Shown in pieces: positions 3,574 to 64,000 of a stretch of DNA of 64,000 bases (position 1 is its first letter; each line of letters begins with the position of its first letter). Position numbers and translations under genes: made by a program. The DNA lies in the NCBI GenBank assembly GCA_001599355.1, contig BCGQ01000003.1, positions 994,468-1,058,467 on the forward strand. Direction: 5' to 3'. The stretch is from Nakazawaea peltata (lineage: Eukaryota; Ascomycota; Pichiomycetes; Alaninales; Pachysolenaceae). The notes beneath the pieces are model-generated. The model was given only the letters and a program-made list of their open reading frames with translations, was not told the DNA's origin and did not search any database.

Positions 3574-4896
3574 TCAAATCTTTGTAGCGATCATGAGATG
3601 ATTTTCTAAGCTTACTTCACTGGTGACATATCTTACAATCCTCAGCTTATATCCATGAGCTTCTAAAGCTTGTCTTCTACTTTCGTCAATGACATGTCTC
3701 AGTTGTAAACCGATCTTTAATCTTTGTTCATATGAAAGGTTGGTGAAATGAGTTGATTCGGTTTCGTTTGGTTGTTTGGAGTTGCTTCCACGACACCCAG
3801 ATGTAGCCCATGAACATAATCTACTAAGATAGTTATCAAACTTATAAGCGTCAATGCCGAATTTTTCATCGAGGAATTGTTTCAGCTCCGGAAGGAGTTG
3901 GTTGAATGAGCAACAATGTCTACAACACATGGCTATGACGATAGTTCCCTTGTCTTGTGTAAATTTAGAGGAATTGATACAACAGTGAAGAGTGAGATCT
4001 GTAGCAACACCACAAAGATGTTTGGAAATAGCAAAGAGTTGATTCTGACCCTCCTTGCTAGTTAATTCTTCTTCAATGGCCAGATCAAGACAATAATCTT
4101 TAATATCTACTTTAAATCTGGTATGTCTTGTAGTGTATGTATCTAATGAGCCATAAGTGGCTTCATAATCCTTGCTTAACTTAACTTCATGCTTGACTCG
4201 AGGAGATGATCTATCCACAAGTAAATAATCCAGCTGAACACCTTTGGAAGTCATATATTTGTTAATATAACGACTCAATTCCAGACGTCCACAACCAAAC
4301 TCTACAATGAGAGCTCTTCTGTCCTTGTCAAGGATGCCATGATTTGTCAAATGGTTGATCATACTGGCTTGTTGAATGATATGTTTCTTATTCTTAAGCT
4401 CATCAAAACGGGATTGAAGTGAATCCTCATGATTATACTGATCTTCCAATGGATAAGTATTAACCTCATCACCAAAACATTCTTTATACTTGATTTGGAA
4501 TTGTGAAATAAACTCCATCAACTCATCTTTATTCTCATTAAACACTACTCTCTCGGTTCTATCCACTCCAGGAACTGCATTATTAAGATCTCGAACATAC
4601 CATTTGGCATCGATCTCTACTGGCTTATTAGCGTTACATTTCTTTAAATGTTTAGCCAAGTTCAGTTTCCAAACCGAATGATTTGGGTCTTTAGGACATG
4701 GAACTCTTTCATCGTCTCCCACTAAACCGTTGGAATGCTCAGCACAGAACTCCGATCCGGCTCTTCTTGTCATCGCACAGTAACGATTTTTCTTAGGCAT
4801 GAAGAAACGACATTGGAGTCGTTCTTTGGCTGGGTCCGATTTCTCCAATTTTTGTTTCTTTAGCACTTTGGAATCTTCATCTCCTGAGTTTGTCAT
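3574..4896 (-). CDS. TRM13: tRNA:m4X modification enzyme Trm13
   Basis: 440-aa 2'-O-methyltransferase that acts on position 4 of some tRNA acceptor stems. An N-terminal CCCH-like finger (CRFFMPKKNRYCAMTRRAGSEFC) is followed by a CHHC U11-48K-type finger (CPKDPNHSVWKLNLAKHLKKC), the hallmark order of Trm13. The catalytic domain follows: EFGCGRLELSRYI is the SAM-binding glycine motif, LVDRSSPRVKHE follows, then KHLCGVATDLTL and a Cys-rich CCRHCCSFNQLLP. It is convergent with TMA19 and divergent from CGI121, another tRNA-modification gene, sharing a 275-bp promoter. Confidence 0.95.
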   Translation of the reverse strand: MTNSGDEDSKVLKKQKLEKSDPAKERLQCRFFMPKKNRYCAMTRRAGSEFCAEHSNGLVGDDERVPCPKDPNHSVWKLNLAKHLKKCNANKPVEIDAKWYVRDLNNAVPGVDRTERVVFNENKDELMEFISQFQIKYKECFGDEVNTYPLEDQYNHEDSLQSRFDELKNKKHIIQQASMINHLTNHGILDKDRRALIVEFGCGRLELSRYINKYMTSKGVQLDYLLVDRSSPRVKHEVKLSKDYEATYGSLDTYTTRHTRFKVDIKDYCLDLAIEEELTSKEGQNQLFAISKHLCGVATDLTLHCCINSSKFTQDKGTIVIAMCCRHCCSFNQLLPELKQFLDEKFGIDAYKFDNYLSRLCSWATSGCRGSNSKQPNETESTHFTNLSYEQRLKIGLQLRHVIDESRRQALEAHGYKLRIVRYVTSEVSLENHLMIATKI

Positions 4897-5171: not shown

Positions 5172-5729
5172 ATGGGGGATTCTTGGATGAGTGTGAGGTT
5201 CCCACAGTACCCGCAATACAAACTTCAACTTGCATTGTACAAAGATGTACAGAATAGCCAGGAGATCAAGCAGCAGTTGATACTGGGTAATAGTGAATTC
5301 GATGGGAGTTTCATCGACGGTAGTGTGGTGCTTAGTGTAGAGCAGTTACTTCTGGGTTGTTATAAGGCGGTACAGGACTGGGATCTGGGCCGAGCAAAGG
5401 CTAAGAGTTTACATAGTGAGATCATTTTGAACTTGTCGCCATTCACTGGAATTATGGACAGTTTCAAGAAGGTTGGACTCACCGAGAAGACTAAAGATTT
5501 AGTAGTGTGTAAGGTGGAAAAGGCTGAGGATTCACAAGATCTTAATGAAGATCCACTGCTACTGAATTTAATTAAAGGAACGTTTGTTCCGCTTATTGAT
5601 GACAATCTTGCTACAGTTCATGATCTTAAAAAAGTCAAAAAGTTATTCAAATTGAACAGCACGTTGGCTGATTGTGAGGATGCTGATAAATTGGCTAGAG
5701 TAGTCATTGGACTGACTCAAATGAAATGA
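5172..5729 (+). CDS. CGI121: EKC/KEOPS complex subunit Cgi121
   Basis: 185 aa, the usual family length. Conserved features are the N-terminal FPQYPQYKLQLALYKDVQNSQEI, FIDGSVVLSVEQLLLGCYKA, and the core SLHSEIILNLSPFTGIMDSFKKVGL, followed by IKGTFVPLIDDNL and the C-terminal helix. Cgi121 binds Bud32 in the complex that makes t6A37 on ANN-decoding tRNAs and also affects telomeres. Divergently paired with TRM13, so two tRNA modifiers share a promoter. Confidence 0.93.
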   Translation: MGDSWMSVRFPQYPQYKLQLALYKDVQNSQEIKQQLILGNSEFDGSFIDGSVVLSVEQLLLGCYKAVQDWDLGRAKAKSLHSEIILNLSPFTGIMDSFKKVGLTEKTKDLVVCKVEKAEDSQDLNEDPLLLNLIKGTFVPLIDDNLATVHDLKKVKKLFKLNSTLADCEDADKLARVVIGLTQMK

Positions 5730-5777: not shown

Positions 5778-6926
5778 TTAGACGGTCAGAGCTCCAGGCT
5801 TTGACTTTTCCTCTCGTACCATACAATCCAACCCTATAAACAGCTCTTCGAGACTTCTTTTGAAGAAATGATCTAAATTATAGCCACCAGCACGGTATTG
5901 TTCGTCTTTAGTGACCATTCCAAGGTAAATAGGATCGTAGTAATCTGTTTGTCCCGCATATTTGAAAGGTGTAGTAGACAGAGAATCTCCATTGAACGGT
6001 GTAAATGGGACAGCTGGCAGCTCTTCAGCTTCTTGGTTATCTCCTGAGTTCCCAATATTCTGTAATTGTTGAAGTTGTTGTTCCTGAAGATCTTTAAGTT
6101 GTTTACGACGCATCGAAGTTTTCTTAAGAAGCGATTTCTTAGCATTAGCAATGATCAGATCAGCTCCTCCATTGCCATTACTAGAATTGGAACTGGTAGT
6201 AGCAAGTTGATTCAATACTTCTTGTCTTGAAATTTCCTCTAATTTGATCTCCTCCTCTCTCAATTCCCTCTCTAACTTCAGTTTCGTCAACTTGAATTGT
6301 TTCTCCATATTTTGTTTAGTAATGAAATCCAGGTACTCTTTAGACATTCTATCCTTGTTTTCTTTAATGACATCTTTGTTCATCAACTCGTATTCACGGA
6401 GTTTGTTCCAAGTGTTCTCCACATCCACATCATTAGTCAAATTATAAACCATATTCTCGATCTCTTCAAGGTAAGTGTTGTACAGATCAGTATCACCGTC
6501 GAAATCCAGCTCATCTTTGTTATAGATTTCAAGTACTTGACGTCTTAAATCTGTCTCTTTCTCGATCACCAAGTCCTCAAATATCTGTTTCTTGAACTTA
6601 TTCTTCCGAAGTATCTTAGGACACGAAGGGTAAGGACATTTCTGTGGTCCCATAGAGAAGATACGATCCACACAACTCTCACAAACCTTATGATAACATT
6701 CTGGATTGATGAGGAAGATCATTGTAGGAGAAAGATACTTGTCTGTTTTACAAATGGGACACATTTCACGAGCCCGATCTTCAGCTGCTTGAGCTGCTGC
6801 TACCGCCGCCGCCGCCGCCGCCAGAGCTCCAGCACCATTAGTTCCAGTTCCATTAGAAGCACCAAGAACACCGTTCATCGGATCCGCAACAACTGATCCG
6901 CCCAAGTTTCCAGCTCGAGAATCCAT
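5778..6926 (-). CDS. TFB3: TFIIH/CAK assembly subunit Tfb3 (MAT1)
   Basis: 382 aa. A C3HC4 RING sits near residues 54-100 (MCPICKTDKYLSP...CYHKVCESC...CPYPSCPKILRKNKF), then the MAT1 coiled coil (roughly 115-240) and a C-terminal region ending in EELFIGLDCMVREEKSKPG. It tethers the Kin28-Ccl1 kinase to core TFIIH for promoter escape and repair. An Ala-rich stretch (AGALAAAAAAVAAAQAAED) precedes the RING. I place the start at the ATG of MDSRAGN; the upstream in-frame TTG is not a likely start. Confidence 0.95.
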   Translation of the reverse strand: MDSRAGNLGGSVVADPMNGVLGASNGTGTNGAGALAAAAAAVAAAQAAEDRAREMCPICKTDKYLSPTMIFLINPECYHKVCESCVDRIFSMGPQKCPYPSCPKILRKNKFKKQIFEDLVIEKETDLRRQVLEIYNKDELDFDGDTDLYNTYLEEIENMVYNLTNDVDVENTWNKLREYELMNKDVIKENKDRMSKEYLDFITKQNMEKQFKLTKLKLERELREEEIKLEEISRQEVLNQLATTSSNSSNGNGGADLIIANAKKSLLKKTSMRRKQLKDLQEQQLQQLQNIGNSGDNQEAEELPAVPFTPFNGDSLSTTPFKYAGQTDYYDPIYLGMVTKDEQYRAGGYNLDHFFKRSLEELFIGLDCMVREEKSKPGALTV

Positions 6927-17260: not shown

Positions 17261-19306
17261 ATGGTCGAATCAGCGTCTATTTTCTACGATTTTGCCATCC
17301 TTTTCTTCAATTGGCTCTATCACATTTTCTTCCGTGAAGTTAAGACGAGGGGCGCTTTTAATGTCCCTAAAACGGGGCCGGTGATCTTCGTGTGTGCGCC
17401 TCATCTGAACCAGTTCGTCGACCCTTCGCTTTTCATGCTTCAGGTCAAGAAACAAGTCGGCCGTAATGTCTCGTTCTTGATCGCTGGAGTCTCGGCAAGA
17501 CGGAAATTCATTGGATTTATGGCTCGTTTGGCAAACGCCATCACTGTCGAGAGAGCTCAGGATCTCTTAAAGACTGTTGAGTCCGACCAGGGTCCTGCTA
17601 CTATCAGATACGAAGATTACCTGGAAGATCCAACCATCATTGTTGGTACTAACACGCATTTTGAACGTGATTTCGAGATAAAAGGTCTCATTGGGTTACC
17701 TCAAAGTGCTGGTAACTCTCAAATCGAGACTATATACAGTGATACGAGACTTAAGTTGAAGAAACCTTTGACTTCTGGTAGGGCTCGTCAGTTGCTTTCT
17801 CAGCCTGAAGGCACAGAGTTCAAATATGCTCCTAAAGTGGATAATTCTCATGTCTTCCAGCACGTTTTCCGTCATCTTCACGATCAAGGAGCCATTGGGA
17901 TCTTCCCTGAAGGTGGTTCTCATGACCGTACCGAGCTTTTACCTTTAAAACCAGGTGTTCTGATCATGGCTTTAGGTGCTGTAGCAGAGAGACCCGATAC
18001 TGAGATCAAAATCATCCCTTGTGGAATGAATTATTTCCATCCTAATAAGTTCAGATCTCGTGCTGTTGTCGAATTCGGTACTCCACTTATTGTCACCCTG
18101 AAAGACGGGGAATTTTACCAACAAAATGCCCGTGAACTGGTCTCTCAACTTCTTACTAAAGTCACCGATCTGTTAAACAGTGTAATTGTCACATGTCCAG
18201 ATTATGATCTGTTGATGACTATTCAGCTGGCCAGAAGATTGTATCAGTATCATCCGCCTTCAGGTTCCAATACCAACGGTGGTAGTATGCCTCTTCCTCT
18301 TGTGGTTGAAATGAATAGGAGACTTGCCCAAGGCTATGTAGCGTATCAAGATGATCCGAGAGTAGTGGAATTATCAAGACTGGTCAATCATTATAACCGT
18401 AGTTTGTCAGAATTGGGTTTGACCGATCATCAATTAGTTGGAATGGATCGTTTCGATACAGTGACTGCTTTAGTTTTGCTCGTACAAAGAGTAGCCAAAT
18501 TATTGGTTTTCCTGTCATTGAGTTTACCAGGGACCGTATTATTTTCTCCGGTCTTTATTGCATGTAAATATTATTCGCAAAAGAAAGCTCGTGAACTGTT
18601 GAAGAAATCCGTTGTCAAGATCAATGCTACGGACGTTTTACTGACTTGGAAATTGTTGTTTGCCTTACTGTTTCTGCCAGTTTTGTACATTTTCTACTCT
18701 ATAATTGGGGTTATTTTTGTAAGAAAGAGAGGACATTTGAGTTCATCGTCGAATCTTCTTGTGTTTTTCACTTGTTACTTGGTTTTGGTTCTGACCACAT
18801 ACTCTGCTTTCAGAATTGGAGAAGTTGGTATGGATATTTTCAAGTCGTTAAGACCTTTGGTGGCAGCTTTGACTTCTGATAGGAAAGAACTCACAAGATT
18901 ACAGAAGGAAAGAGAGACTCTTTCTTTACAAGTGACTGAATTATGTAATGAATTAGGACCAGAATTGTTCCCTGATTTCGATATCTTTAGGAAAGCGGAA
19001 GAAGTTGAAGAAGAAACTGAGAAGGAGAAAGAAGTTGAGGAAGAACTGTTGAAGAAAGTTAAATCTGATACTTCTCTCTTCTCTCAAATGACGGATCAAC
19101 TGAAGGTTAATTTGAGTGATGTTGCGATTTTCAGTGATTTAATTAATGTTCAAGCTAATGGGTCGAGATCGAGATCACTGTCGGGTGGTGATGAGAGTTC
19201 AGCCGAAGTCACCGGAAGAGATTCTAATCCGGAGACAATAATAAGACAGAAGATTCGTGAGAGATTTAAACAAAATCTGGAGAGACAGAATAGTCCGGAG
19301 ATGTAG
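17261..19306 (+). CDS. SCT1: Glycerol-3-phosphate/DHAP acyltransferase (Sct1/Gpt2)
   Basis: 681 aa from the ATG of MVESASIFYDF; the in-frame TTG upstream is not a likely start. It catalyses the first step of phosphatidic-acid synthesis in the ER. Motifs are GPVIFVCAPH-CTG-NQFVDP (family motif PHANQFVDP), GIFPEGGSHDRTELLPLKPG and IIPCGMNYFHPNKFRSRAVVEFG. Two membrane segments follow (about 415-445, 470-495) and another (about 515-535), then an acidic coiled-coil tail. The CTG at 17405-17407 sits exactly on the conserved Ala, key evidence for CTG = Ala. SCT1 and GPT2 are paralogues in S. cerevisiae, so the symbol is by family. Confidence 0.95.
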   Translation: MVESASIFYDFAILFFNWLYHIFFREVKTRGAFNVPKTGPVIFVCAPHLNQFVDPSLFMLQVKKQVGRNVSFLIAGVSARRKFIGFMARLANAITVERAQDLLKTVESDQGPATIRYEDYLEDPTIIVGTNTHFERDFEIKGLIGLPQSAGNSQIETIYSDTRLKLKKPLTSGRARQLLSQPEGTEFKYAPKVDNSHVFQHVFRHLHDQGAIGIFPEGGSHDRTELLPLKPGVLIMALGAVAERPDTEIKIIPCGMNYFHPNKFRSRAVVEFGTPLIVTLKDGEFYQQNARELVSQLLTKVTDLLNSVIVTCPDYDLLMTIQLARRLYQYHPPSGSNTNGGSMPLPLVVEMNRRLAQGYVAYQDDPRVVELSRLVNHYNRSLSELGLTDHQLVGMDRFDTVTALVLLVQRVAKLLVFLSLSLPGTVLFSPVFIACKYYSQKKARELLKKSVVKINATDVLLTWKLLFALLFLPVLYIFYSIIGVIFVRKRGHLSSSSNLLVFFTCYLVLVLTTYSAFRIGEVGMDIFKSLRPLVAALTSDRKELTRLQKERETLSLQVTELCNELGPELFPDFDIFRKAEEVEEETEKEKEVEEELLKKVKSDTSLFSQMTDQLKVNLSDVAIFSDLINVQANGSRSRSLSGGDESSAEVTGRDSNPETIIRQKIRERFKQNLERQNSPEM

Positions 19307-19469
19307 ATATTGCATTGAATGAGATTCAGACGATTCTTGGCTCGTAATCGACTTTCGACTGAGCCTCAGCCAACTCTCAATTGACTCTTGATTGACTCTC
19401 CCTCTACCGACCTACATATAATTGTAATTTAATTTATTTAATATTCCTAATGCTACCAGATTCTCCGTA

Positions 19470-20036
19470 CTACTCTTCCCCAGCTGGAACCTCGTCCTTC
19501 AAAAATTTATTCAATTTAACCTTGATCTCCGTACTCAGATTCCCCCTCAATACATCCGAAACAAACTCCACATCACAATCCAATTGAACCATCTCAAGAC
19601 TACTTTTCAACACTCCACACAACACATTGGAGTACCAAAATTTCCCGGCAGCATCAGCTGGTAATTCCACAAATTGCAGCAAGGGATTCTCTTCCAATAC
19701 CAAATGGAAACTCTGGTTATCGTTCGAGAAATTTGTCACCAATGGCTGAATATTAAGGTACATTCTGAAGCCTATTTTGCTCACGACCTCGGCTGTTTCT
19801 TTGAAGTTCAGACATCTTCCAAGCCCTGTTTTCAGGAAGAATTCTTCCACCAATCTGAGTCCTATGTTGTATCCCATCTTGAACAATTGTTTATTCACTT
19901 CTTCGTAGTCATTGTTGTATTCGCGGCATAATTGAGCCACCATTGATCCGTAGGTGAGACAGAAGACTTCTGAATTGATCTTTTCCACCTTGTTTCTCCA
20001 GATTTCGTCGCTTAATGCTTTATAGGCCTTGGACAT
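19470..20036 (-). CDS. BET3: TRAPP complex core subunit Bet3
   Basis: 188 aa, full-length. Conserved features are MSKAYKALSDEIWRNKVEKI at the N-terminus, GYNIGLRLVEEFF, the stretch KIGFRMYLNIQPLVTN, FVELPADAAGKFWYSN and the end SLEMVQLDCDVEFVSD followed by VLRGNLSTEIKVKL. Bet3 is the shared TRAPP subunit needed for Rab GTPase activation and ER-to-Golgi vesicle tethering. It is convergent with SCT1. Confidence 0.97.
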   Translation of the reverse strand: MSKAYKALSDEIWRNKVEKINSEVFCLTYGSMVAQLCREYNNDYEEVNKQLFKMGYNIGLRLVEEFFLKTGLGRCLNFKETAEVVSKIGFRMYLNIQPLVTNFSNDNQSFHLVLEENPLLQFVELPADAAGKFWYSNVLCGVLKSSLEMVQLDCDVEFVSDVLRGNLSTEIKVKLNKFLKDEVPAGEE

Positions 20037-20293
20037 ATTGGTGTAGTATGGAAGGCAATGAGTGAATTTGGGGTGTTGTCTAATTGTGGAACTCGCCTTA
20101 CGGTGGAAGTGTTCACTTTAATGGCTTTTAAATGATTGACTGTGATCTAAAAAGGCGTTGGAGATTGAGATATATTTGGTGTTAGTGCACTACCTTTTAT
20201 AGGAAATTCGTGAGTTTGTGTCTTTGTGTTATGATTACGTATTCGGGTAATTACATGTATTTCCTATTTAGGTATTTTAGGTAATTTCATTGT

Positions 20294-21532
20294 CTATTTG
20301 AATCCATGTTGGTCTAAGACATGATTAATGGCTTGATCAACATCATCGAAAACACCAACAGTTGGTCTAGCATACTTTCCAGCTACATCATCGACAAAGT
20401 CTTGGTCTTTAAAGACACCGGTTCTTAACAAAATTGACTCCCAACCGTAGTTATTTGCTCCCACAATATCACTTTCTGGATTATCCCCTACCATGTAGAC
20501 CTTTTTGAATGGGGAAGAGGTTGGAGATACGGCCAATTGCGGAATTAATTGGTCTTGTTCAAAGATTTTGGAATCAGTAGCATTTAACTTGGATCTCCAG
20601 TCAATTAAAATATGATGAGCATAGTCATAGGTGACTCTCTCTGGTTTTCCTAAGACCACAGATTCCATATTTTTAGAGCTACCATTCATGTGGTTGTATA
20701 ACAGTTCGACTTGTAAACGGAAAGCTCCTTGGCCGAAACGAGGCAATGGATAATCATTAGCCCAAAGGAAATCATTATTAGAGAAGAAAATTGGAACTGC
20801 TGGGGTCTCCGATTGGTCTTTGAAATGTCTCTTAGTTCCCATCAAACCTTTATCGGAATTCAAAACGTCCAAAACTACTTGGGTGTCGGATCCCATATCC
20901 CTTGGATCATTGAAAACCAAAATTGCTTCGATTGGTTTGGCATCCTCGGTGAAAAGTCTCAGATCTCCCTCATCTGGTCTGGCAATTTTGGTCAATTCTT
21001 CCTCCTTGTATTGATAGAATGGCCACAATGAAGGTTGAGCCTTGATAATGTCCAGAGGGATGATCACGTCTTTGAATCCGTAGCTTTGAGCTACCTCTCT
21101 GACATTATTCCCATCACCGCCAACACATAAGACACGCTCAAAATCATTGACAAGACATTTGAATGGGGTATGTGACTGGATCAATTGCAATGGACTGATA
21201 TGATTCTCCAACAGCTTCGAGAGGAAGTCTGTCCGAAGGTCTTCCAACTTTCCTCCTCCATTGGTAAGTAAGATGAATGGGATTTTGAAATGTTTCAAGG
21301 TCTTGATGGTGTTCTTGGCCAGCTCAATTGGATGTTCACCTCTCATTAAGACACCATCGATATCGAAGACGAAGGCGATATCTGAAGGGGAGTTAAGCGC
21401 GGAGTGGGAGCTGTGGAAGGATCTGTTTGTGAGGCAGATCGATGCATAATTAGGCCGTATAATATTATGGTAACCAGAGAATCTGGTATTTCTGATGGCT
21501 TTGATACCACCAGTAGTTCTAAATCTATTCAT
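20294..21532 (-). CDS. CECR5-type HAD-superfamily hydrolase (YKR070W-like)
   Basis: 412 aa, HAD class IIA. A likely mitochondrial presequence (about 1-45) is followed by the catalytic DxD in FVFDIDGVLMRG (D57, D59), motif II LLTNGGG, a long cap and the C-terminal acidic motif YMVGDNPESDIVGANNYGWE with LLRTGVF. This matches the CECR5/YKR070W family of mitochondrial HAD proteins; its substrate is not established. The promoter contains the 17-bp minisatellite. Confidence 0.88.
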   Translation of the reverse strand: MNRFRTTGGIKAIRNTRFSGYHNIIRPNYASICLTNRSFHSSHSALNSPSDIAFVFDIDGVLMRGEHPIELAKNTIKTLKHFKIPFILLTNGGGKLEDLRTDFLSKLLENHISPLQLIQSHTPFKCLVNDFERVLCVGGDGNNVREVAQSYGFKDVIIPLDIIKAQPSLWPFYQYKEEELTKIARPDEGDLRLFTEDAKPIEAILVFNDPRDMGSDTQVVLDVLNSDKGLMGTKRHFKDQSETPAVPIFFSNNDFLWANDYPLPRFGQGAFRLQVELLYNHMNGSSKNMESVVLGKPERVTYDYAHHILIDWRSKLNATDSKIFEQDQLIPQLAVSPTSSPFKKVYMVGDNPESDIVGANNYGWESILLRTGVFKDQDFVDDVAGKYARPTVGVFDDVDQAINHVLDQHGFK

Positions 21533-21750
21533 CTATGTGGTAGTGATTGTTATAGGGGAGGGGTTAGTTGGATGAATCTTGAATTTGTTCCAGGTCAAAT
21601 CGGAAGCTTGTCCGATATTCGTAATTTGCTCTGCCTGCTTAAATCGTTGGGAAAAAGGGGGTGAGGGGCAGATCTGGGGATGGGCAGATTTGGAGAGAGG
21701 GCAGATCTAAAGAGGTTTGTGACGAATAGTATTTGGGATGGGCAGACCAG

Positions 21751-21990
21751 GATAGCGGGCACATCCAGAGAGCGGGNNNNNNNNNNNNNNNNNNNNNNNN
21801 NNNNNNNNNNNNNNNNNNNNNNNNNNNNNNNNNNNNNNNNNNNNNNNNNNNNNNNNNNNNNNNNNNNNNNNGAGAGCGGGCACATCCAGAGAGCGGGCAC
21901 ATCCAGAGAGCGGGCACATCCAGAGAGCGGGCACATCCAGAGAGCGGGCACATCCAGAGAGCGGGCGCATCCAGAGAGCGGGCACATCCA
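21751..21990. repeat. 17-bp minisatellite (GAGAGCGGGCACATCCA)n with sequence gap
   Basis: Seven perfect or near-perfect 17-bp units run from 21872 to 21990 (the sixth has an A-to-G change). At least one and a half more units lie before a run of 95 Ns (21777-21871). The array sits between the HAD gene start and the MET1 3' end. Since 17 is not a multiple of 3, all frames cycle through SGCARSLDVPALWMCPL; the open frames over it are artefacts. Confidence 0.97.
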
Positions 21991-22119
21991 GTGCAGCATC
22001 TTACACTTTCGCTCACCTATGAAGATCAGGGCACATTCGAACTCAGCCAACAGCCCTACCCATCTCTCCCTACACAATCAACTCATATATACATAATAAC
22101 ATTACTTTTATAAATATAC

Positions 22120-23949
22120 TTACAGTGACAACGATGAAATGATCCCATTGAGACCAGTCACATCGGTGTCGTCAAATTGACCACATCCCTCTTGGACAAT
22201 CCATTTAGGAGCTGTGGTGTCTTCATTTTGGGGGGTTACCGCACTAAGCAAGGTGTTACAAGCCCATCCGGTAACTAATAACCCTGGAGGTCTGGAACCA
22301 CAAGCATCATACAGTTCGGCAACATGTTCTAAAGTGGTTCTAATGACTCTCTGATCAGGACAAGAAGCTCTTTCAATGATACAACATGGCAATTTGATAT
22401 CCCAACCTCTCTTCTCACATAACTCTGGTACCAATTCTACTATACGATGCAAAGCCATCAAGAACACAGTGGTTCTGGTCTTGTTATACTCGGGTAAGTT
22501 AGGCAATACACCACGTCTTCCGGTTCCTGTCATGATCAATACTTGGTCACTGACGTCTCTATGTGTGACTGGAATTTGAGACATAACAGGGGCAGCTAAC
22601 AGTGATGTGATACCTGGGATAACGGCAGGTTCGAAACCATGTTCAGAGAAGAACTTGAACTCTTCTCCACCTCTTCCAAATATGTACGGATCACCTTGCT
22701 TTAAACGGATCACCTTCTTTCCTTGTTGTAAATTTGTAAGGCCAATATGAAGCAACTCTTGTTGGGCCAGCTCGGCGTTTCCTGGGAATTTTCTAGCGAT
22801 GAAGACCTCGGTGGATCTTGGGATCAATTCTAAGATTTGCTGAGGAACCAACTTGTCGGCCAAGATCAAGTCTGCCGAATAGATAGCTCCAAGAGCACCT
22901 ACGGTAAGAAGAGAGACGGCACCTGGACCTGATCCAATTAAAGAGATAGAACCTTTCTTGGCAGTCGACTCTACTGAGGAAGAAATGGCTGAAACGGCAC
23001 CTACGGGACTGTTGTCGTTGGTTGCTGGTAGCTCATTTGATACAGAGTTCGAATTCTGGAGGTTGCTCTGTTTTGAATCACCGGTATTGATACCGGCAAC
23101 CGTCTCTGTGGTTTGCTCAACTTCGGTCTTATTGGACAGTTCTTGATATTTATGGTAAGCCATGGACAAATCGTCTACGGAAAGTGTAGCCAATTTCTTC
23201 AATGGATAATATTCTACAATTTGTGACAACCATCTTGTTCTTTGCATCTTCTTCTCCTTCTCGGACATCTCAAATTCATGGATTAACTCATTCAATTTCA
23301 GAGTCTGGACAGAATCTTCTTCATTAGAATCATCAAAGCCACCTTCAAATTCGTACTTCAAGTCCTGTAAATCCTCCTGTTGAATCCTGGCTCTCAACTT
23401 CCCCACTCTGTCACAAATTTCTCCAATATTTTGTGGTAAAGAGTTGACCAACTCTCTCTTGATTCTTTGAGCCAATCTACAGCCCTTGCCTGAGGTGGTG
23501 ATACCCATTTGGAAATCACCATTGGAGTAGGTGGAAAGTAAAGTGAACGACGAGAAATCTGGAGAGTTCACAACATTGATAGGGATCCGGAGTTTACGAC
23601 ACAGCTGGTATATCTCTTGAACAACATTGGTATCTGTGGTCGATGAGTACCTTGTGACATAGACTCTATCGACAATGTGATTGACTTCAGGTCTACCTAA
23701 GGTGACCAAATCCTTGGAGAGATCGAAATCTCTGTTGATGAATTTCACTTTAGTTGATCCAGAGTCATCTCGGCTTTCCAACTGTTGTCTCAAACGTAAT
23801 GGGAAACTGCTAAGATCATTGGAAGAGATCAAAATCGGTGTGGCTCCCATCTCAATGATAGTATCGACTCTATAGGAGGTAAGATTGGAGACCCCAACGA
23901 TAAGGTGGGTCTCCCCGAAACAGCTCTCGGCAGTCAACAATCTAGTCAT
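22120..23949 (-). CDS. MET1: Uroporphyrinogen-III C-methyltransferase (sirohaem synthesis)
   Basis: 609 aa. The N-terminal third is a Met8/CysG-like Rossmann region (VYVTRYSSTTD, RIPINVVNSPDFSSFTLLST, TSGKGCRLAQRIKREL). After a disordered linker, the C-terminal SUMT domain starts near 336 with LIGSGPGAVSLLTVGAL, then LADKLVP, RLKQGDPYIFGRGGEEF and GSRPPGLLVTG. It makes the methylated precursor of sirohaem, the cofactor of sulfite reductase in Met/Cys synthesis. A TCACGTGA E-box about 110 bp upstream fits Cbf1 control of sulfur genes. A tRNA gene follows upstream. Confidence 0.95.
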   Translation of the reverse strand: MTRLLTAESCFGETHLIVGVSNLTSYRVDTIIEMGATPILISSNDLSSFPLRLRQQLESRDDSGSTKVKFINRDFDLSKDLVTLGRPEVNHIVDRVYVTRYSSTTDTNVVQEIYQLCRKLRIPINVVNSPDFSSFTLLSTYSNGDFQMGITTSGKGCRLAQRIKRELVNSLPQNIGEICDRVGKLRARIQQEDLQDLKYEFEGGFDDSNEEDSVQTLKLNELIHEFEMSEKEKKMQRTRWLSQIVEYYPLKKLATLSVDDLSMAYHKYQELSNKTEVEQTTETVAGINTGDSKQSNLQNSNSVSNELPATNDNSPVGAVSAISSSVESTAKKGSISLIGSGPGAVSLLTVGALGAIYSADLILADKLVPQQILELIPRSTEVFIARKFPGNAELAQQELLHIGLTNLQQGKKVIRLKQGDPYIFGRGGEEFKFFSEHGFEPAVIPGITSLLAAPVMSQIPVTHRDVSDQVLIMTGTGRRGVLPNLPEYNKTRTTVFLMALHRIVELVPELCEKRGWDIKLPCCIIERASCPDQRVIRTTLEHVAELYDACGSRPPGLLVTGWACNTLLSAVTPQNEDTTAPKWIVQEGCGQFDDTDVTGLNGIISSLSL

Positions 23950-24057
23950 GTTCTTGTCTTGTTATGACACACCAATATACCTTAGTCAGATACCTCTATA
24001 TATCTCTTCTCTGCACCTCATCGAGTTGAAATTTTTTTTGTGTGGAGTGTGGTGCTT

Positions 24058-24065
24058 TCACGTGA
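24058..24065. promoter_or_regulatory. Cbf1-type E-box TCACGTGA upstream of MET1
   Basis: A palindromic TCACGTGA sits about 110-116 bp before the MET1 start. Cbf1 binds TCACGTG at sulfur-assimilation promoters in yeasts, with GTGTGG (Met31/32-like) sequences adjacent at about 24040-24053. Confidence 0.7.
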
Positions 24066-24140
24066 CTTTGAGAATTTGGCTGAGACTGTGGAGAAATATT
24101 GGAGTATGAGAGAATTTATTTGAGGATTAAGAGAAATTAC

Positions 24141-24214
24141 GACTGTGTGGCCAAGCTGGTTAAGGCATCCGACTGTTAATCGGAAGATCGCTGGTTCGAT
24201 CCCAGCCATGGTCG
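24141..24214 (+). tRNA. tRNA-Asn (anticodon GTT)
   Basis: 74-nt cloverleaf, no intron. Acceptor GACTGTG pairs with CATGGTC (two G:T pairs), discriminator G. The D-arm is GGCCAAGCTGGTTAAGGC (box A), and the anticodon stem TCCGA/TCGGA carries loop CTGTTAA, giving GTT. The T-arm GCTGGTTCGATCCCAGC has a B box. A T-run terminator follows at once (from 24215). Matches yeast tRNA-Asn closely. Confidence 0.97.
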
Positions 24215-24229
24215 ATTTTTTTTTTTTTG
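24215..24229 (+). terminator. Pol III T-run terminator of tRNA-Asn
   Basis: ATTTTTTTTTTTTG directly after the tRNA 3' end, a typical RNA polymerase III stop. Confidence 0.85.
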
Positions 24230-24325
24230 TTAAGATGAGCTCATTTTTTTAGTTGAAAAATTTTAGTTAGAGAAGGTTGGTCAGAAGAGTAGAAGCTTAG
24301 AAGAGGGATCGTATTTGAGTTGATA

Positions 24326-25681
24326 ATGCCGCCAAAGAGAGCTTTAGGATTGGGTAAATCGGCTAAACAGAAGAAACAGAAGGTTTCTGCCGAGTTTGGT
24401 GGTGAGACAGTGGAGGTACTGCTGGGCGAGGTCCTGGGAGGTGTCCTGGGAGATGTCCTGGGGGAAATCCTGCTGGGAGAATCTCTGGATCTGCAACAAT
24501 TAACAGTGGAATTAGACGAAACAGCTGATCTGGATGATGAGTTCGCTCAATTGAAACTGTTATGGAAGACTTTCACCAACAGTAACAAAGAAAATGAGTT
24601 GATGTTGAATGGAATCATTCACGAATGTGACAGGCTCTTAAGAAAGTCGTATAATTTGGAGAGCGGAAAGGCTTTAGAGGAGGAAAAGCTCAGTCTTACC
24701 GAGGAATTTCATGCTATTTATGCTTTGCTGTTATGTGAGCTTGCCAAATTCAACAAAAATGAGACAGAACTCAAGGCTGATGAAGATGATGAGGAGTTGA
24801 TTGTCGAACTGGATGCTGAAGCTGGAGATGTTGGTGAATTCTTTGATGCTGCATTAGAAAGAGCTCAATTGGGGTTGGAAAAGTTCCCAAAAAGCAAGCT
24901 GTTGAACTACATTATGGCCATTATCATCATTAACCGTTTACCATTGCAGTATATCAGTAGAATGGACTTGAATTCTACTAAGAAACAGTTCCCAGATATG
25001 TCAACATTGATGGAACAACTGAAAGAGTATGTTGAGCTTGCAAATGGACTGAGTTCTGGATCTTCTGGATCTGAGATCCTCGAGTTTTATGATGCCATGG
25101 ATGATTTGCTTGATATTGTACTGAATTTCGGTCAAGATTTCATGGAAGGATTGGATAGTGAGGCAGAAGAGGAAGAAATGGTCGAGACTCCAGAACTCTC
25201 ACTGAAACATCCGTTGAAAAAATTGCATGAGAACGTAGATTCGTACAAAGAATGGTGGAGAGTCAACTTTGAGGGTCAATTTGACCAACTCTCAGATCCA
25301 GAGACTAAGAAGAAACTGGCATCTCTGTTGGGTCGTTCTTACATTCAATTACTGGAAGTTCCTACCCAAATTTTCACCAAGATCAAGTACGGAGAGGACG
25401 ATGAGGATGAGGAGGATTATGGAATGACTGAAGAAGAAGCTCAGAAGGCTGCTTTGGCTGCCAGTGAGAAACTGATCGAATACTTGTTACAACTGGCAGA
25501 TGAACTGAACCCTGATAGCTTAGTAGACTTACTGGAGCTGGAGATTAATGTAGGAAACTTGTACGACGTAGACTCTAAGGAACAAGAAGAGTGGTATAAA
25601 AAGGCAGAGACGAGATTGAGAAAGCTGAATAACATCACTCATGGTAAATATCAAGACATTCTCGATAATTTAATAGGTTAG
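24326..25681 (+). CDS. ETT1: Enhancer of translation termination Ett1
   Basis: 451 aa starting at MPPKRALGLGKSAKQKKQK (ATG; a TTG lies two codons earlier). Conserved blocks are ADLDDEFAQLKLLW, NGIIHECDRLLR, DAALERAQLGLEKFPKS, RLPLQYISRM, MDDLLDIVLNFGQD and HGKYQDILDNLIG. Ett1 is a nuclear TPR-like protein needed for efficient translation termination. Near residues 32-52 it has a CTG-rich (VLG-type) 12-bp repeat. At 24728, 25472, 25493, 25532, 25538 and 25625 CTG codons align with Ala of S. cerevisiae Ett1 as I recall it. Adjacent to TMC1 as in S. cerevisiae (YOR051C-YOR052C). Confidence 0.95.
   Translation: MPPKRALGLGKSAKQKKQKVSAEFGGETVEVLLGEVLGGVLGDVLGEILLGESLDLQQLTVELDETADLDDEFAQLKLLWKTFTNSNKENELMLNGIIHECDRLLRKSYNLESGKALEEEKLSLTEEFHAIYALLLCELAKFNKNETELKADEDDEELIVELDAEAGDVGEFFDAALERAQLGLEKFPKSKLLNYIMAIIIINRLPLQYISRMDLNSTKKQFPDMSTLMEQLKEYVELANGLSSGSSGSEILEFYDAMDDLLDIVLNFGQDFMEGLDSEAEEEEMVETPELSLKHPLKKLHENVDSYKEWWRVNFEGQFDQLSDPETKKKLASLLGRSYIQLLEVPTQIFTKIKYGEDDEDEEDYGMTEEEAQKAALAASEKLIEYLLQLADELNPDSLVDLLELEINVGNLYDVDSKEQEEWYKKAETRLRKLNNITHGKYQDILDNLIG
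24418..24480 (+). repeat. 12-bp coding repeat GTCCTGGGAG-type in ETT1
   Basis: Imperfect tandem units with GTCCTGGGAG(G/A)T encode V-CTG-G-G/D; under Ala decoding they read as VAG-type low-complexity sequence. In frame and inside a variable N-terminal region. Confidence 0.8.
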
Positions 25682-30456: not shown

Positions 30457-31614
30457 TCAAAGCACACTGTTCTTCTCTGTTGACCATTTCCGTCTATTTT
30501 TAATTATCCATGGATGTTGATCCACCATACTAAGCGAATATCTCTGAGCAGGATCATATTTCAAAAGATTCCGGATCAAGTCTGCTGCATCCGGATCTAC
30601 ATGGTCAGGTATCTTTAGATCCACCTTGGCGATCTTCTTGTAGGTGACATTGCGGTATTGGTCCTCAAATGGAGGATATCCGCAAAGAAATTCGAACATC
30701 AATACACCTAGGGCCCAAACGTCCACCTTTTCATCGTGCTCTTTCAGTTCAACCATTTCCGGAGGTAAATAGTCCAACGTTCCACACATTGTGGACCGCT
30801 TACTGGAAGGGGAGTACACGGACCAGCCAAAATCTGAGATCTTGATGGTGTTATCGAATCCAAGTAAGATATTCTCTGGCTTGATATCACGATGGATGAT
30901 GTGTTTACGATGTAAATGACTTAAAGCATGTGCCATTTGTGAGATGTAATGCGACAGAGGTACATCGTCGAAACGCTTGCGTTTCTTAAGAAACCGATAC
31001 AACTCACCATATACTACGTATTCCAAAATTAAGTAGACACGTTGCAGATCATGGAAATAACCATACAACCTCACACAATTCTCATGACGGATATTTGACT
31101 GGATTTCAACTTCTCTTCTGAATTGGTTCTCCACCTTGAATTCACTGAGTTCTTTCTTTTCCATAACTTTTAATGCACAAACGTAACCTGTTTTCAAGTC
31201 CTTAGCACAATATACTTTGCCAAACTTACCTTTACCCAACTTGCGTCCTATTTCGAAGTCATTGATCGTATAATGGCGGTAATGGCGTAACGAAGAAGCC
31301 GGTGAGATGCGAGGAATATTGTTGGCGGGCACTGTAGCCACACTCAGTCTTTGTCTCTTGAGGAGATGTTTGCTGGATCTCGCAATAGAGAGCGCCGAGG
31401 AAGTTTGAGGTGATCCTCCATTTGAAGCGCGCCATTTCTCGGTATTATGTGACTTTCTTGACATGTGTTGTAATGTATTGGGATTGATCTTAGAGAGGGG
31501 GTTTCGTACGGAGCCGCTGTTGGCAGAAGCAGCACTAGTACGACCTGATAATGCACCAGGTTTCGATAAACGAGCCCTATTGATCATCTGATGAGAAGAC
31601 TGATGTAACTCCAT
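30457..31614 (-). CDS. IPL1: Aurora kinase Ipl1
   Basis: 385 aa Ser/Thr kinase of the chromosomal passenger complex, which corrects kinetochore attachments. The P-loop GKGKFGKV is at residues 127-134, the VAIK-type Lys is at K149, then the catalytic loop HRDIKPEN, DFGWSV, and the activation loop TMCGTLDYLPPEMVE, typical of Aurora. The N-terminus (about 1-110) is basic and disordered. Its CTG codon at 31045-31047 lies in YFHD-CTG-QRVYLILEY, where human Aurora A has HDATRVYLILEY, so it aligns with Ala. Another CTG at 30955-30957 falls on the Ala of Ipl1 NDILASDYI. Confidence 0.96.
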   Translation of the reverse strand: MELHQSSHQMINRARLSKPGALSGRTSAASANSGSVRNPLSKINPNTLQHMSRKSHNTEKWRASNGGSPQTSSALSIARSSKHLLKRQRLSVATVPANNIPRISPASSLRHYRHYTINDFEIGRKLGKGKFGKVYCAKDLKTGYVCALKVMEKKELSEFKVENQFRREVEIQSNIRHENCVRLYGYFHDLQRVYLILEYVVYGELYRFLKKRKRFDDVPLSHYISQMAHALSHLHRKHIIHRDIKPENILLGFDNTIKISDFGWSVYSPSSKRSTMCGTLDYLPPEMVELKEHDEKVDVWALGVLMFEFLCGYPPFEDQYRNVTYKKIAKVDLKIPDHVDPDAADLIRNLLKYDPAQRYSLSMVDQHPWIIKNRRKWSTEKNSVL

Positions 31615-32290: not shown

Positions 32291-34210
32291 ATGACAGTTA
32301 ATGAAGACAAGTCTAGAAAGATGGGAGAAGAGAAGAAATTGGAAGAAAAACAACAGAAGGTCCAGAACCTGGACAATGGTGATGATCAATCACTTGGCTC
32401 TGATCTGGAAAGTGACCTGCTGCCAGAGCAATACCAGCGGGAGGGAAGTCAGATTCTGAAGATGAATTCGGGGGCTTATGAAATGGCCGGTGAAGATGGA
32501 GGTCATCAAGGTACTATTCATCGGAGATTATCAGTTCTGAGACCTCAATTTGAGCCGGATTCGTTCCGGAACTTATCACTGATCCCTCCTCCGGTTCCAG
32601 AGTCGCTTCCGACGACTCCGGGATTTGATGATATTGGGGAGATGTATTTCAATAGGAAAGATCCTTTGTTATTTCCACAGCAACAGCTGCTGTTTCTGCA
32701 ACTGCAACTGCAACTGCAACTGCACAACGACAACGAAAGTGAATTGGCACGGCTGATGTCTAATCTTGTCCATGGAACCACCGATGTCAATGATGAACCG
32801 GTAGAAGAGATGACATTGAAGTTCCCACCACGTAATCTTTGGAGAGTTCTTGCTGTATGTGCTTGGTCTTTCTGTGGAGGACTGAGTGATGGTGCTCCTG
32901 GTGCTCTCTTGCTTAGAATCGAGAACTATTATTCGATCAGTTACTCAATTGTATCATTGATTTGGTTATCGAATGCTTTGGGGTTCATCATAATTGCTCT
33001 GATCAGTGACAAGATGGATCTGAAGCTTGGGAAACGTAATATGATCGTATTTGGATGTGTTATGATGCTGATCTTTTTTGGTATCGTCAGTTCAGGAACT
33101 CTATTCCCAGTCATTTGTGTAGGTTTCTTCTTTGGAGGTATTGGACTTGCTACTTGTTTGAGTCAGATGAACATTTTCCTCTCAAGATTCGATAAAGCAT
33201 CCACTTACCTTGGATGGTTCCATGGGTCTTATGGATTGGGAGCCACAGTTGCTCCTATCGTGGCCACTTCTATGGTCAATACCGGAGTCAAATGGCATTT
33301 CTATTATTTAATTTTACTCGGAGTTGGGTTCTGTAATGCTGCCAATTTATGGTTCTCATTTACCGGTTCCGACACGGACTTGAAACCATGGGATCACCAG
33401 GAACTGGTCCATGATGGTTCACATGATGACTCGTCGACCGCAGAAGACATTGGTTTGACCGAGTTCACCCGTTCTCAACTAGTAAATACTAATGTAGATT
33501 ACCGTAATAACACAACAGGAAACGATTATGAGTCTGTTCCTAACAATAACAGTGCCGAGACTAGACGTGATAAGATACCAGCTGAGCCTGTGATTCCTAA
33601 GGGAGATTTCAGATTGCTGATCAAGAATGTCAGAACTTGGCTCTTGACCACATTCGTCTTTTTCTACCAAGGAGCAGAGGTTTCATTACCTGGATGGTAC
33701 GAGACGTTTCTCACCGAGTATCGGTCGGCCGATCCAGAATCTTTTGGGTACGTTGCCTCTGGGTTCTGGGCTGGCTTGACTATTGGAAGACTTTTCTTAG
33801 TCGAAAGGATCCACAAGAGATTCGGAGCCAAACGTGGAGTGTCTTGTTTGGCCATGTTACTGATCATTTTCACTGCTTGTGGATGGGCCATTTCGAATGT
33901 CTATGTCTCTCTGACACTTATTTCTATAGCTGGTATTTGGGTAGGTCCTATCTATCCATTAATGATCACTGTAGCTACACGGGTGTTACCTAGAAAGATT
34001 CAAGTTATTTCTCTTACTATCATGACATCTGGGGGGTCATCTGGAGGTGCTTTATGGCCATTCTTGACGGGATTAGTATCTCAATTTGCTGGGGCATTTG
34101 CTGTGATGCCAATTTTCATTTCGTTATTCTCCGCCATGGTATTTGTATGGTTTGTCTTACCTAATCCTGACAGATCTATTGTTAAGAAGCCATGGCAGAG
34201 ATTATTTTAG
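32291..34210 (+). CDS. Major facilitator superfamily membrane protein (Bsc6-like)
   Basis: 639 aa. A cytosolic acidic N-terminus (about 1-185) is followed by 12 predicted helices, starting NLWRVLAVCAWSFCGGLSDG with APGALL, which resembles the D-x2-PG-x-LL opening of this fungal MFS family. The A-like loop DKMDLKLGKRN follows helix 2 or 3. A middle cytosolic loop (360-440) and a second bundle (NVRTWLLTTFVFFYQGAEVS to FVWFVLPNPDRS) complete the fold. The overall form resembles Bsc6; the substrate is unknown. CTG codons in helices may be read as Ala. Confidence 0.85.
   Translation: MTVNEDKSRKMGEEKKLEEKQQKVQNLDNGDDQSLGSDLESDLLPEQYQREGSQILKMNSGAYEMAGEDGGHQGTIHRRLSVLRPQFEPDSFRNLSLIPPPVPESLPTTPGFDDIGEMYFNRKDPLLFPQQQLLFLQLQLQLQLHNDNESELARLMSNLVHGTTDVNDEPVEEMTLKFPPRNLWRVLAVCAWSFCGGLSDGAPGALLLRIENYYSISYSIVSLIWLSNALGFIIIALISDKMDLKLGKRNMIVFGCVMMLIFFGIVSSGTLFPVICVGFFFGGIGLATCLSQMNIFLSRFDKASTYLGWFHGSYGLGATVAPIVATSMVNTGVKWHFYYLILLGVGFCNAANLWFSFTGSDTDLKPWDHQELVHDGSHDDSSTAEDIGLTEFTRSQLVNTNVDYRNNTTGNDYESVPNNNSAETRRDKIPAEPVIPKGDFRLLIKNVRTWLLTTFVFFYQGAEVSLPGWYETFLTEYRSADPESFGYVASGFWAGLTIGRLFLVERIHKRFGAKRGVSCLAMLLIIFTACGWAISNVYVSLTLISIAGIWVGPIYPLMITVATRVLPRKIQVISLTIMTSGGSSGGALWPFLTGLVSQFAGAFAVMPIFISLFSAMVFVWFVLPNPDRSIVKKPWQRLF
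32695..32726 (+). repeat. 6-bp coding repeat (CTGCAA)n in MFS gene
   Basis: About five CTGCAA copies alternating a CTG codon and Gln; with Ala decoding this is an Ala-Gln run in the cytosolic N-terminus. Confidence 0.9.
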
Positions 34211-36326: not shown

Positions 36327-38753
36327 ATGGATATTCACAGGTGCAGATTTGTAGATTATAATCCACACACGATCACAGCATTGGGATTTTCGCATGCTCC
36401 GGTTCAGAATAAGTTTGCTCCAGGAGATTTACGTCTCGCTGTAGGCCGTGGCAACGGAGATATCGAGATCTGGAACCCTAGACATAACTGGATCCATGAA
36501 CAGACTTTACAAGGAGGCCGTGGACGTTCCATTGAAGGGTTGGTGTGGGCACTTTGGGATCAACAAGTGCCTCGATTATTCTCTATTGGTGGATCTACCG
36601 TGATCACCGAGTGGGATTTACTGCATGGGACCCCAATGAAGAACTACGACTGTAACTCTGGTGTGATATGGTCTTTGGGGGTTAATGAGGCTGGAGATAG
36701 GTTGGCTGTAGGATGTGACGACGGAACTGTGGTGGTAGTGGACATTTCTGGAGGTCCAGGATCATTGGAGCATGAACTGATATTGCAAAGACAGGATTCC
36801 AGAGTTCTCAGCATCGCTTGGTATGGAGATGACGTCATTGTTGGAGGGTGTGCCGATGGAAGAGTCAGGGTATGGAATGCTCTGCGTTCTGGAGATGTGA
36901 AGGGACGTTTGTTGACCACTTTACGTGTCGATAAGAGTAAGACCGAGAGTACTTTGGTCTGGTCGGTGTTGCTGTTGCCTAAGAAGAACCAGCTTGTCAC
37001 TGGTGACTCTACTGGTAGTGTTAAAGTGTGGAATATGGAGCATTATGTTCTCTCTCAATCGTTCCAAGTTCATGACCTGGATGTGTTGTCATTACTGAAG
37101 AGTGCTGATGAGGAGAAGATCTTCAGTGCAGGAATTGACCGTAAAATCTTCAATTTCAGTCTTGTGACCACCGACAAATCCCAGAGATGGGTTTCTGCTT
37201 CGAACAGATTGCTTCATTCTAATGATATTCGTAGTTTAGCTACCTTTGAGAGTAAAGGCGCTAATTTCCTCGTTAGTGGAGGTGTAGAGAGATCAATTGT
37301 CATTAATTCTGTTAATAATTTCCATGACGGTCCATACAGGAAGTTGCCTGTTGTTTTACAGAGACCAAATGTGATCACCAATCCACATCTGAAACTTGTA
37401 GTGATGTGGCAGGACCAGCAGGTCAAGATTTGGAAGATTAGCGAGTTGAATCGTTCCAAGAAGTTGATTGCCAAGCTCACTTTGGAAGATGAGGACAATA
37501 TCACCAGCTGTTGCATAGATAAGACCGGTAAATTCCTTGCCGTTGCTCGTCTCACCAGTATTAAGATATTTAGAATTACGGAGGTGGTTGGAGAAGAGGC
37601 TGAAGCGGGAGAGTCTGATGGTGATGATTCTAATGCTTCTGTTCGTTATAAAATCTCGAAATTGAGAACTCCAGCTGGACTTGTCAGGGCTTTGGAGAGT
37701 TGTAATGCCAAGTTCATGCGTTTCACCGATGGTGGTCTTCTTGTGATCACATCTGATAACGAGTTGATGTCATTTGGGATCTCTTTTGATGAGGAAACTG
37801 GTGTAATTGTAGAAGAAAATGAGTCGGAAGGTTCTGTAGAGGAGATTGAGTTGCCAGAAGTAGGTCGTATCAGATCAAAACTCGATCATATGGCCAATAT
37901 CAATAATTTCAAGGTATCAGATGACGAGAGTTTACTGGCAGTATCGAGATTATGTGGTACAATTGATATCATTGAGTTGAAGACGGCTTCTTCGTACCGT
38001 TTGATCAAGCTTAACCAAACTCCAGTCAATTTCGAGTTCACCAAGCAAAATACTTTGGTGGTGGTCAATGCCGAGAACAAATTGTATGAGTTCAATGTCA
38101 GCAGAGCCAGTTTGAAGAAACAGGACATTTTGACCGCCTGGTCTAAACGTAATTCCGAATGCTTACCTTCGGCTTTCCTTAAATTGACCTCGAAATGTCA
38201 AGGTTTCTTCAAAGATAACTTGAACGACAAGAGGATCTGGATGTTCGGAGATAATTGGCTATGTTTCTTTGATCTCCGTTATAACATTCCTATTGATGGT
38301 GAAGCTGCTAAGTTCGGGATGAACCAGTTGCAATTACAACAACAGGACCAACGTAGATTCAACAAGAAGAGAAGAAGAAACAGTAGTGCTGTCATGACAT
38401 TGTCGGAGACCACTAATACTGTAGATGATTCTTTGAATGTGGAGTATAATGAGGAAGCTGCTATTGAGTCTGATGATGAGGAGGCTGCTTCTGGAGCTGC
38501 TTCTACCACATCTGCTGCTCCTGATAATTTCAGCAGAAATCTCAAATTACTCGAAGCCAATAGGTTTATTAACAATGGACTCATCCAACATGCTGATGAT
38601 GACGAGGATGAGAAATGTTTCTGGTCCACCAATAAGTATACTTCTTTGATGTTCTGTGGAAGCTTTGGATACAATGAGATTATTGTTGTTGAACGTCCAT
38701 TGTTTTTGTTATCACAACCTCCTGCATTTAAATTGAATAAGATTATTGTATAG
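36327..38753 (+). CDS. UTP4: U3 snoRNP / t-UTP protein Utp4 (cirhin)
   Basis: 808 aa from the ATG of MDIHRCRFVDYNPH; the upstream in-frame TTG is not the start. It is a t-UTP subunit of the small-subunit processome, linking rDNA transcription to pre-18S processing in the nucleolus. N-terminal WD40 repeats show APGDLRLAVGRGNGDIEIWN, GRSIEGLVWALWD, STVITEWDL, YDCNSGVIWSLG, GCDDGTVVVVDISGGPGSLEH, VWSVLLLPKKNQLVTGDSTG, FSAGIDRKIFNFS and VSGGVERSIVINS. The C-terminal acidic stretch is variable. CTG codons at 36621 and 37077 align with Ala in S. cerevisiae Utp4. Confidence 0.97.
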   Translation: MDIHRCRFVDYNPHTITALGFSHAPVQNKFAPGDLRLAVGRGNGDIEIWNPRHNWIHEQTLQGGRGRSIEGLVWALWDQQVPRLFSIGGSTVITEWDLLHGTPMKNYDCNSGVIWSLGVNEAGDRLAVGCDDGTVVVVDISGGPGSLEHELILQRQDSRVLSIAWYGDDVIVGGCADGRVRVWNALRSGDVKGRLLTTLRVDKSKTESTLVWSVLLLPKKNQLVTGDSTGSVKVWNMEHYVLSQSFQVHDLDVLSLLKSADEEKIFSAGIDRKIFNFSLVTTDKSQRWVSASNRLLHSNDIRSLATFESKGANFLVSGGVERSIVINSVNNFHDGPYRKLPVVLQRPNVITNPHLKLVVMWQDQQVKIWKISELNRSKKLIAKLTLEDEDNITSCCIDKTGKFLAVARLTSIKIFRITEVVGEEAEAGESDGDDSNASVRYKISKLRTPAGLVRALESCNAKFMRFTDGGLLVITSDNELMSFGISFDEETGVIVEENESEGSVEEIELPEVGRIRSKLDHMANINNFKVSDDESLLAVSRLCGTIDIIELKTASSYRLIKLNQTPVNFEFTKQNTLVVVNAENKLYEFNVSRASLKKQDILTAWSKRNSECLPSAFLKLTSKCQGFFKDNLNDKRIWMFGDNWLCFFDLRYNIPIDGEAAKFGMNQLQLQQQDQRRFNKKRRRNSSAVMTLSETTNTVDDSLNVEYNEEAAIESDDEEAASGAASTTSAAPDNFSRNLKLLEANRFINNGLIQHADDDEDEKCFWSTNKYTSLMFCGSFGYNEIIVVERPLFLLSQPPAFKLNKIIV

Positions 38754-63832: not shown

Positions 63833-64000
63833 ATGAAGAGTGCTACTGTTTTGACTACTTTGGCTTTGGCCGCCTTGATTTCTGCCGCTCCATTCGAGCA
63901 CCTGCACCACTTGCACAAGAGAGATGCTGCTGTTAAGATTGTTACTGAGGTCGTTTGGGTTGACCAAAACGGTAACATCGTTACTCCAACTACCACTGCT
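63833..64000 (+). CDS. Secreted cell-wall-type protein, 3' partial
   Basis: First 56 codons of a secreted protein, cut by the window end. Signal peptide MKSATVLTTLALAALISAAP, then FEHLHHLHKR, a Kex2 site (KR) at 29-30, then DAAVKIVTEVVWVDQNGNIV and a Thr-rich start TPTTTA. The start resembles the Scw4/Scw10/Mp65 (GH17) cell-wall family, in which VTVTV(W)VDQNG/NGN follows a Kex2 site, but too little is seen to name it. Codon bias is strong (GCT, TTG, GTT, AAG), suggesting high expression. Confidence 0.8.
   Translation, partial: MKSATVLTTLALAALISAAPFEHLHHLHKRDAAVKIVTEVVWVDQNGNIVTPTTTA

Follow-up and report, generated by a model that had tools for sequence, protein, structure and literature searches.

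Alanine as the probable meaning of CUG in a 64-kb stretch of budding-yeast nuclear DNA

In budding yeasts the codon CUG has been reassigned three times, each recoded clade having acquired its own novel tRNA(CAG), and as of 2018 these were described as the only known reassignments of sense codons in nuclear genomes (PMC5951914). According to the same source, which set the codes of 18 species by liquid chromatography-tandem mass spectrometry (LC-MS/MS), the clade that translates CUG as alanine comprises Pachysolen, Nakazawaea and Peterozyma; the Codetta paper (PMC8629427) and PMC11540330 agree with this assignment. Nakazawaea is placed in the order Alaninales, family Pachysolenaceae (NCBI). Ascoidea rubescens was described as a CUG-Ala species in PMC5499181, but serine was found by PMC5951914. 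Here we analyze a stretch of 64,000 nucleotides (contig BCGQ01000003.1, positions 994,468 to 1,058,467; henceforth "the window"), for which an earlier note, written from the sequence without database searches, had proposed that CTG stands for alanine and that the DNA comes from the Pachysolen/Nakazawaea/Peterozyma lineage, i.e. the clade published with the CUG-Ala code (PMC5951914). We estimate at roughly nine in ten the probability that the window is nuclear DNA of a budding yeast of the Alaninales, in which CUG would serve as a regular alanine codon. This is a rare change of the genetic code, already described for one small group of yeasts, and no new code.

The window contains 28 ATG-started open reading frames (ORFs) of at least 150 aa. 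We scanned 20 of the encoded proteins against Pfam with CTG translated as alanine (NCBI table 26), leucine (table 1) or serine (table 12), and the other eight under the alanine code only, for naming. Over 31 families hand-picked as main matches, the alanine translation gained 135.8 bits on leucine (24 families better, 3 worse, 4 equal) and 54.9 bits on serine (18 better, 7 worse, 6 equal). The biggest contributor was the Nro1 domain of the ETT1 protein, the strongest single protein in favour of alanine (family scores are listed in the table below); without it the margins are 92.4 bits over leucine and 35.1 bits over serine. Models overlapping the chosen ones were dropped (other WD40 and RING models, HEAT, Cnd1, Methyltransf_32, adh_short_C2, PK_Tyr_Ser-Thr, RRM_occluded and similar). 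Several scores run the other way and weigh against alanine: the MFS transporter is the clearest exception, with MFS_1 preferring leucine by 7.0 bits, followed by Steroid_dh (1.3 bits) and RasGEF_N (0.1 bit), and among the dropped models some favour leucine (at most 3.7 bits, ANAPC4_WD40) and some serine (at most 2.0 bits, Methyltransf_32).

Homologous proteins of solved structure allowed the CTG positions to be inspected directly. For ten of the 20 proteins we aligned the sequence, with X in place of every CTG residue, to entries of the Protein Data Bank (PDB); the first alignment set consisted of 20 protein-homolog pairings in 23 pieces (5,688 cells, 115 of them opposite CTG), and seven more pieces enlarged it to 6,592 aligned cells with 132 CTG cells at 63 CTG sites. 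All alignments were verified letter by letter against the window. The set excludes near-copies, i.e. near-identical chains, and leaves aside short C-terminal UTP4 pieces without CTG, the final lines of some weak alignments, a second yeast condensin subunit chain, whose middle spans two more CTG codons, and three weak pieces (two N-terminal ones of ORC5 and one U1A fusion chain). Opposite CTG, alanine is the commonest residue (24 of 132 cells), followed by S 18, E 16, V 10, G 10, K 9, T 7, I 7, Q 5, C 5, R 4, Y 3, P 3, M 3, D 2, N 2, F 1 and H 1, while leucine occupies only two cells. In the U1A/U2B''-type protein, two CTG sites face alanine in all three aligned homologs. CTG sites behave most like the alanine positions of homologous proteins and unlike leucine positions.

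When all 20 residues were compared with BLOSUM62 on the enlarged set, CTG scored +6.3 bits as Ala, +2.0 as Ser, -12.5 as Gln, -12.7 as Glu and -47.1 as Leu, and in 2,000 bootstrap samples over sites it was called Ala 1,441 times, Ser 467, Glu 74 and others 18 times. As a control, each of the 55 further codons represented by 10 or more sites was called as in the standard code, so that apart from CTG the code testable here is the standard one. The first set had given Ala +8.0, Ser +2.2 and Leu -45.3 bits (bootstrap Ala 1,505); the seven added pieces thus shrank the lead of alanine over serine from 5.8 to 4.3 bits. With BLOSUM45 this lead is reduced to 1.0 bit (Ala +7.1, Ser +6.1; bootstrap Ala 1,095 and Ser 740 of 2,000), with 53 of the 55 control codons correct and two Val codons called Ile, which counts against a confident choice of alanine. 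The BLOSUM test therefore rules out leucine firmly and separates alanine from serine weakly. At invariant columns, defined by at least two homologs in agreement, CTG occurs at 0 of 76 Leu columns and at 3 of 30 Ala columns (GCN codons at 14); if CTG encoded leucine, the 52 other Leu codons at invariant-Leu columns should be accompanied by about 12 CTG codons (P about 2e-5). In the smaller set the counts were 0 of 84 for Leu and 3 of 31 for Ala columns. CTG was found at no invariant Thr (0/21), Val (0/32) or Gln (0/20) column. Less favourably for alanine, it also stands at invariant Glu (2/35), Ser (1/27), Lys (1/39) and Gly (1/44) columns. A standard code, with the alanine-like sites a coincidence, could draw on the three leucine-preferring families mentioned above; given the Pfam totals, the aligned cells, the invariant columns and the BLOSUM62 scores we reject it, its probability being negligible.

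The 12 positions cited by the earlier note as CTG codons at conserved alanines are all in-frame CTG codons (31045 and 30955 being the low-coordinate ends of codons on the minus strand), and five of them fall in proteins aligned to solved structures. In the IPL1-type kinase, the codon at 31045 faces alanine in Aurora A (HDATRVYLILEY), whereas that at 30955 faces threonine, so this one of the five alignable examples is not confirmed and weighs against the reading as alanine. The UTP4 codons at 36621 and 37077 face alanine in the best-matching Utp4 structure (yeast), but Glu and Gln in a second one (Chaetomium); over all eight CTG codons of UTP4 the best match has A, T, Q, Y, A, T, Q and A. The three homologs aligned over the OAR1-like codon at 1820 carry Ser, Gly and Ala. 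The six cited sites in ETT1 were assessed jointly, via the Nro1 family score.

The alternative that deserves most attention is serine, as in yeasts of the Ser1 or Ser2 clades, which comes second to alanine in the Pfam totals and in both BLOSUM62 counts. CGI121 favours it by 1.3 bits; for MAT1 the two residues tie, and for TRAPP they nearly do. To calibrate the comparison we joined the Nro1, TRM13 and CGI-121 domains (799 residues, 28 CTG). With CTG read as Ala the join scored 716.2 bits, followed again by Ser with 695.3; Thr (693.0), Gly (684.1), Gln (682.5), Lys (680.2) and Glu (678.4) also scored below alanine and are discarded. The Ala-minus-Ser difference is +20.9 bits for the 28 CTG sites, +8.0 for GCT (26 sites) and -14.5 for TCT/TCA (21 sites); hence the sign of CTG matches that of a genuine Ala codon and is opposite to that of genuine Ser codons. 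Other controls gave -5.9 for the Gln codons CAR (33 sites), -9.3 for GAG (Glu, 37 sites) and +9.2 for TTA (Leu, 24 sites); the latter shares the sign of CTG, but the leucine reading is excluded by the other tests. Within the join, the CGI-121 domain taken by itself prefers serine by 1.4 bits, a point for the rival. The deficit of serine over the 31 families, the opposite behaviour of true Ser codons and the abundance of CTG in the window, which genomes of the Ser1 and Ser2 clades are reported to under-use (PMC6701816), make plain serine very unlikely. Taken together, these homology-based comparisons uphold the CUG-Ala interpretation of the earlier note: alanine is best in the Pfam totals and by BLOSUM, leucine is excluded, and serine is disfavoured with calibration.

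Other results weigh against alanine. An empirical profile fit, which takes its residue profiles from Ala, Ser and Leu codons within the window and uses the nearest homolog (57 sites, first alignment set), describes CTG better as Ser (-159.1 nats) than as Ala (-164.0) or Leu (-230.2). Fitted as a mixture, CTG comes out as 0.38 Ala, 0.62 Ser and 0.00 Leu, with a bootstrap 95% range of 0.08 to 0.68 for Ala. Taken at face value, this would suit an ambiguous CUG, translated as alanine together with a sizeable portion of serine or another residue; however, the mixture method is weakly specific, as it assigns 0.68 Ala to the Gln codon CAG, and we give it low weight, while the lead of Ala over Ser is larger for CTG than for GCT, a plain Ala codon. 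We regard such ambiguity as most improbable. Context tests (hydropathy and neighbour residues) were intended as homolog-free evidence but proved contrary to alanine or uninformative: the residues flanking CTG resemble the contexts of Gln (r 0.60) and Glu (0.55), to a smaller degree those of Leu (0.25), and do not resemble those of Ala (-0.17). In the first alignment set, alanine in homologs is found at 13 of 57 CTG sites vs 48 of 145 GCN sites (Fisher P 0.18), and identity among homologs shows no significant drop at CTG sites (0.293 vs 0.344, P 0.53). One reading, which the window does not prove, is that alanines encoded by CTG occupy less constrained and more hydrophilic positions; it fits the tendency of CUG codons toward non-essential sites that PMC5951914 notes for recoded clades. 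In view of the contrary profile fit and the Gln/Glu-like context, the preference for alanine over serine rests mainly on the Pfam comparison.

The earlier note was right that CTG is frequent here, unlike in the CUG-Ser1 yeasts. Across the 28 ORFs CTG accounts for 259 of 12,541 codons (20.7 per 1000) and is the commonest CTN codon, ahead of CTT (232), CTC (151) and CTA (21); it reaches 1.81 times the expectation from position-specific base composition, CTA only 0.14 times. Genes are unequal in the share of CTG among their Ala codons (chi-square P 0.0016), which is lowest in TCTP (0) and highest in ETT1 (0.50), the complete lack of CTG among the 14 alanines of TCTP having a P of about 0.013. A variant of the CUG-Ala reading builds on such features: CUG might be alanine with a real share of serine, or the CUG-Ala codons might form a sorted subset (enriched, in more hydrophilic contexts, absent from TCTP). 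Though we consider this very unlikely, it would mean that a captured codon is still spreading with a restricted role. Two genes carry CTG-rich repeats in frame: (CTGCAA)n, read as Gln-Ala repeats, at 32696..32724 in the MFS transporter, and a 12-base CTGGGAGATGTC array at 24422..24472 in ETT1; combined, these arrays account for 10 of the 259 CTG codons.

Features of the window, with Pfam scores in bits for CTG read as Ala, Ser and Leu
Feature	Coordinates	Strand	CTG codons	Pfam family	Ala	Ser	Leu	Remark
Short-chain dehydrogenase, OAR1-like	1352..2191	+	6	adh_short	126.3	125.3	116.5	
TCTP	2992..3495	+	0					14 GCN alanines
TRM13 tRNA methyltransferase	3574..4896	-	7	TRM13	233.6	228.9	222.5	
CGI121 (KEOPS)	5172..5729	+	6	CGI-121	144.3	145.6	136.2	slightly favours Ser
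TFB3/MAT1	5778..6926	-	10	MAT1	165.5	165.5	158.8	Ala and Ser tie
Acyltransferase (SCT1 in the earlier note)	17261..19306	+	19	Acyltransferase	47.1	45.7	45.6	681 aa; includes cited 17405
CTG codon in PH-CTG-NQFVDP (SCT1)	17405..17407	+						in frame
BET3 (TRAPP)	19470..20036	-	4	TRAPP	132.2	132.3	128.5	Ala and Ser nearly tie
tRNA-Asn (GTT)	24140..24215	+						sole tRNA gene found; uninformative on CUG
ETT1/Nro1 family	24326..25681	+	27	Nro1	404.2	384.4	360.8	451 codons
Aurora/IPL1-type kinase	30457..31614	-	4					includes cited 31045 and 30955
MFS transporter	32291..34210	+	23	MFS_1	94.2	86.6	101.2	best as Leu
UTP4	36327..38753	+	8					
Condensin subunit Ycg1/Cnd3	40955..44167	+	20	Cnd3	267.8	265.4	260.1	
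U1A/U2B''-type RRM protein	47157..47810	+	8	RRM_1	64.6	61.5	55.2	

Outside these genes, positions 58,075-63,820 form a stretch of 5.7 kb without any open frame above 121 aa (stop to stop), which is long for a compact yeast genome. An ORF at its left edge (57574-58074) shows a weak match to the Ty5 Gag N-terminus (19.1 bits, below the Pfam cut-off of 23.5), and no repeats of at least 30 bases were found in 57500-64000; the frame-poor region (57574..63823) is possibly a retroelement relic or heterochromatic. At its other side, an ORF that begins at 63821 and runs off the window at 64000 starts with a signal peptide-like segment and has a Lys-Arg site, and perhaps encodes a putative secreted protein. 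Elsewhere, a run of 95 N (21777-21871) directly adjoins a 17-base minisatellite with 7.1 copies (21872-21991); together (21777..21991) they are perhaps a collapsed assembly repeat.

By the mechanism published for this clade, the ancestral tRNA-Leu(CAG) would have disappeared, and CUG would now be read by the product of a tRNA-Ala gene that acquired a CAG anticodon by mutation. Alanyl-tRNA synthetase recognizes its substrates via the G3:U70 pair of the acceptor stem. The charging of such a CAG-anticodon tRNA with alanine by this enzyme would be expected, because alanyl-tRNA synthetase, like seryl-tRNA synthetase, is stated to require no particular anticodon bases (PMC5951914). No tRNA with a CAG anticodon was found within the 64-kb window. 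If CUG is indeed alanine, translation of the contig's genes with the standard code yields about 2% wrong residues (259/12,541), and therefore table 26 should serve for their annotation.

Among the known systems, the closest parallel is the CUG-Ala code of Pachysolen tannophilus (NCBI table 26), with which we compared the window by codon behaviour: the likeness consists in CTG behaving as Ala with the other testable codons standard under BLOSUM62. The G+C content of the window is 40.8%, and that of Pachysolen is lower. PMC5951914 assigned Nakazawaea and Peterozyma to the Ala clade on genomic and LC-MS/MS evidence, and the 42.3% G+C given for N. ambrosiae in PMC10106607 is close to that of the window, which is compatible with such an origin and does not amount to an identification. 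The abundance of CTG differs from a remark in PMC5951914, according to which recoded clades use CUG relatively rarely. With the CUG-Ser1 and CUG-Ser2 yeasts (Candida, Ascoidea, Saccharomycopsis) the window shares the reassignment of the same codon and the scarcity of CTA (21/12,541 here), as CUA is scarce in those clades according to PMC6701816, a study without CUG-Ala species; it differs from them in that its best-fitting residue is alanine and in that CTG, under-used there, is common here.

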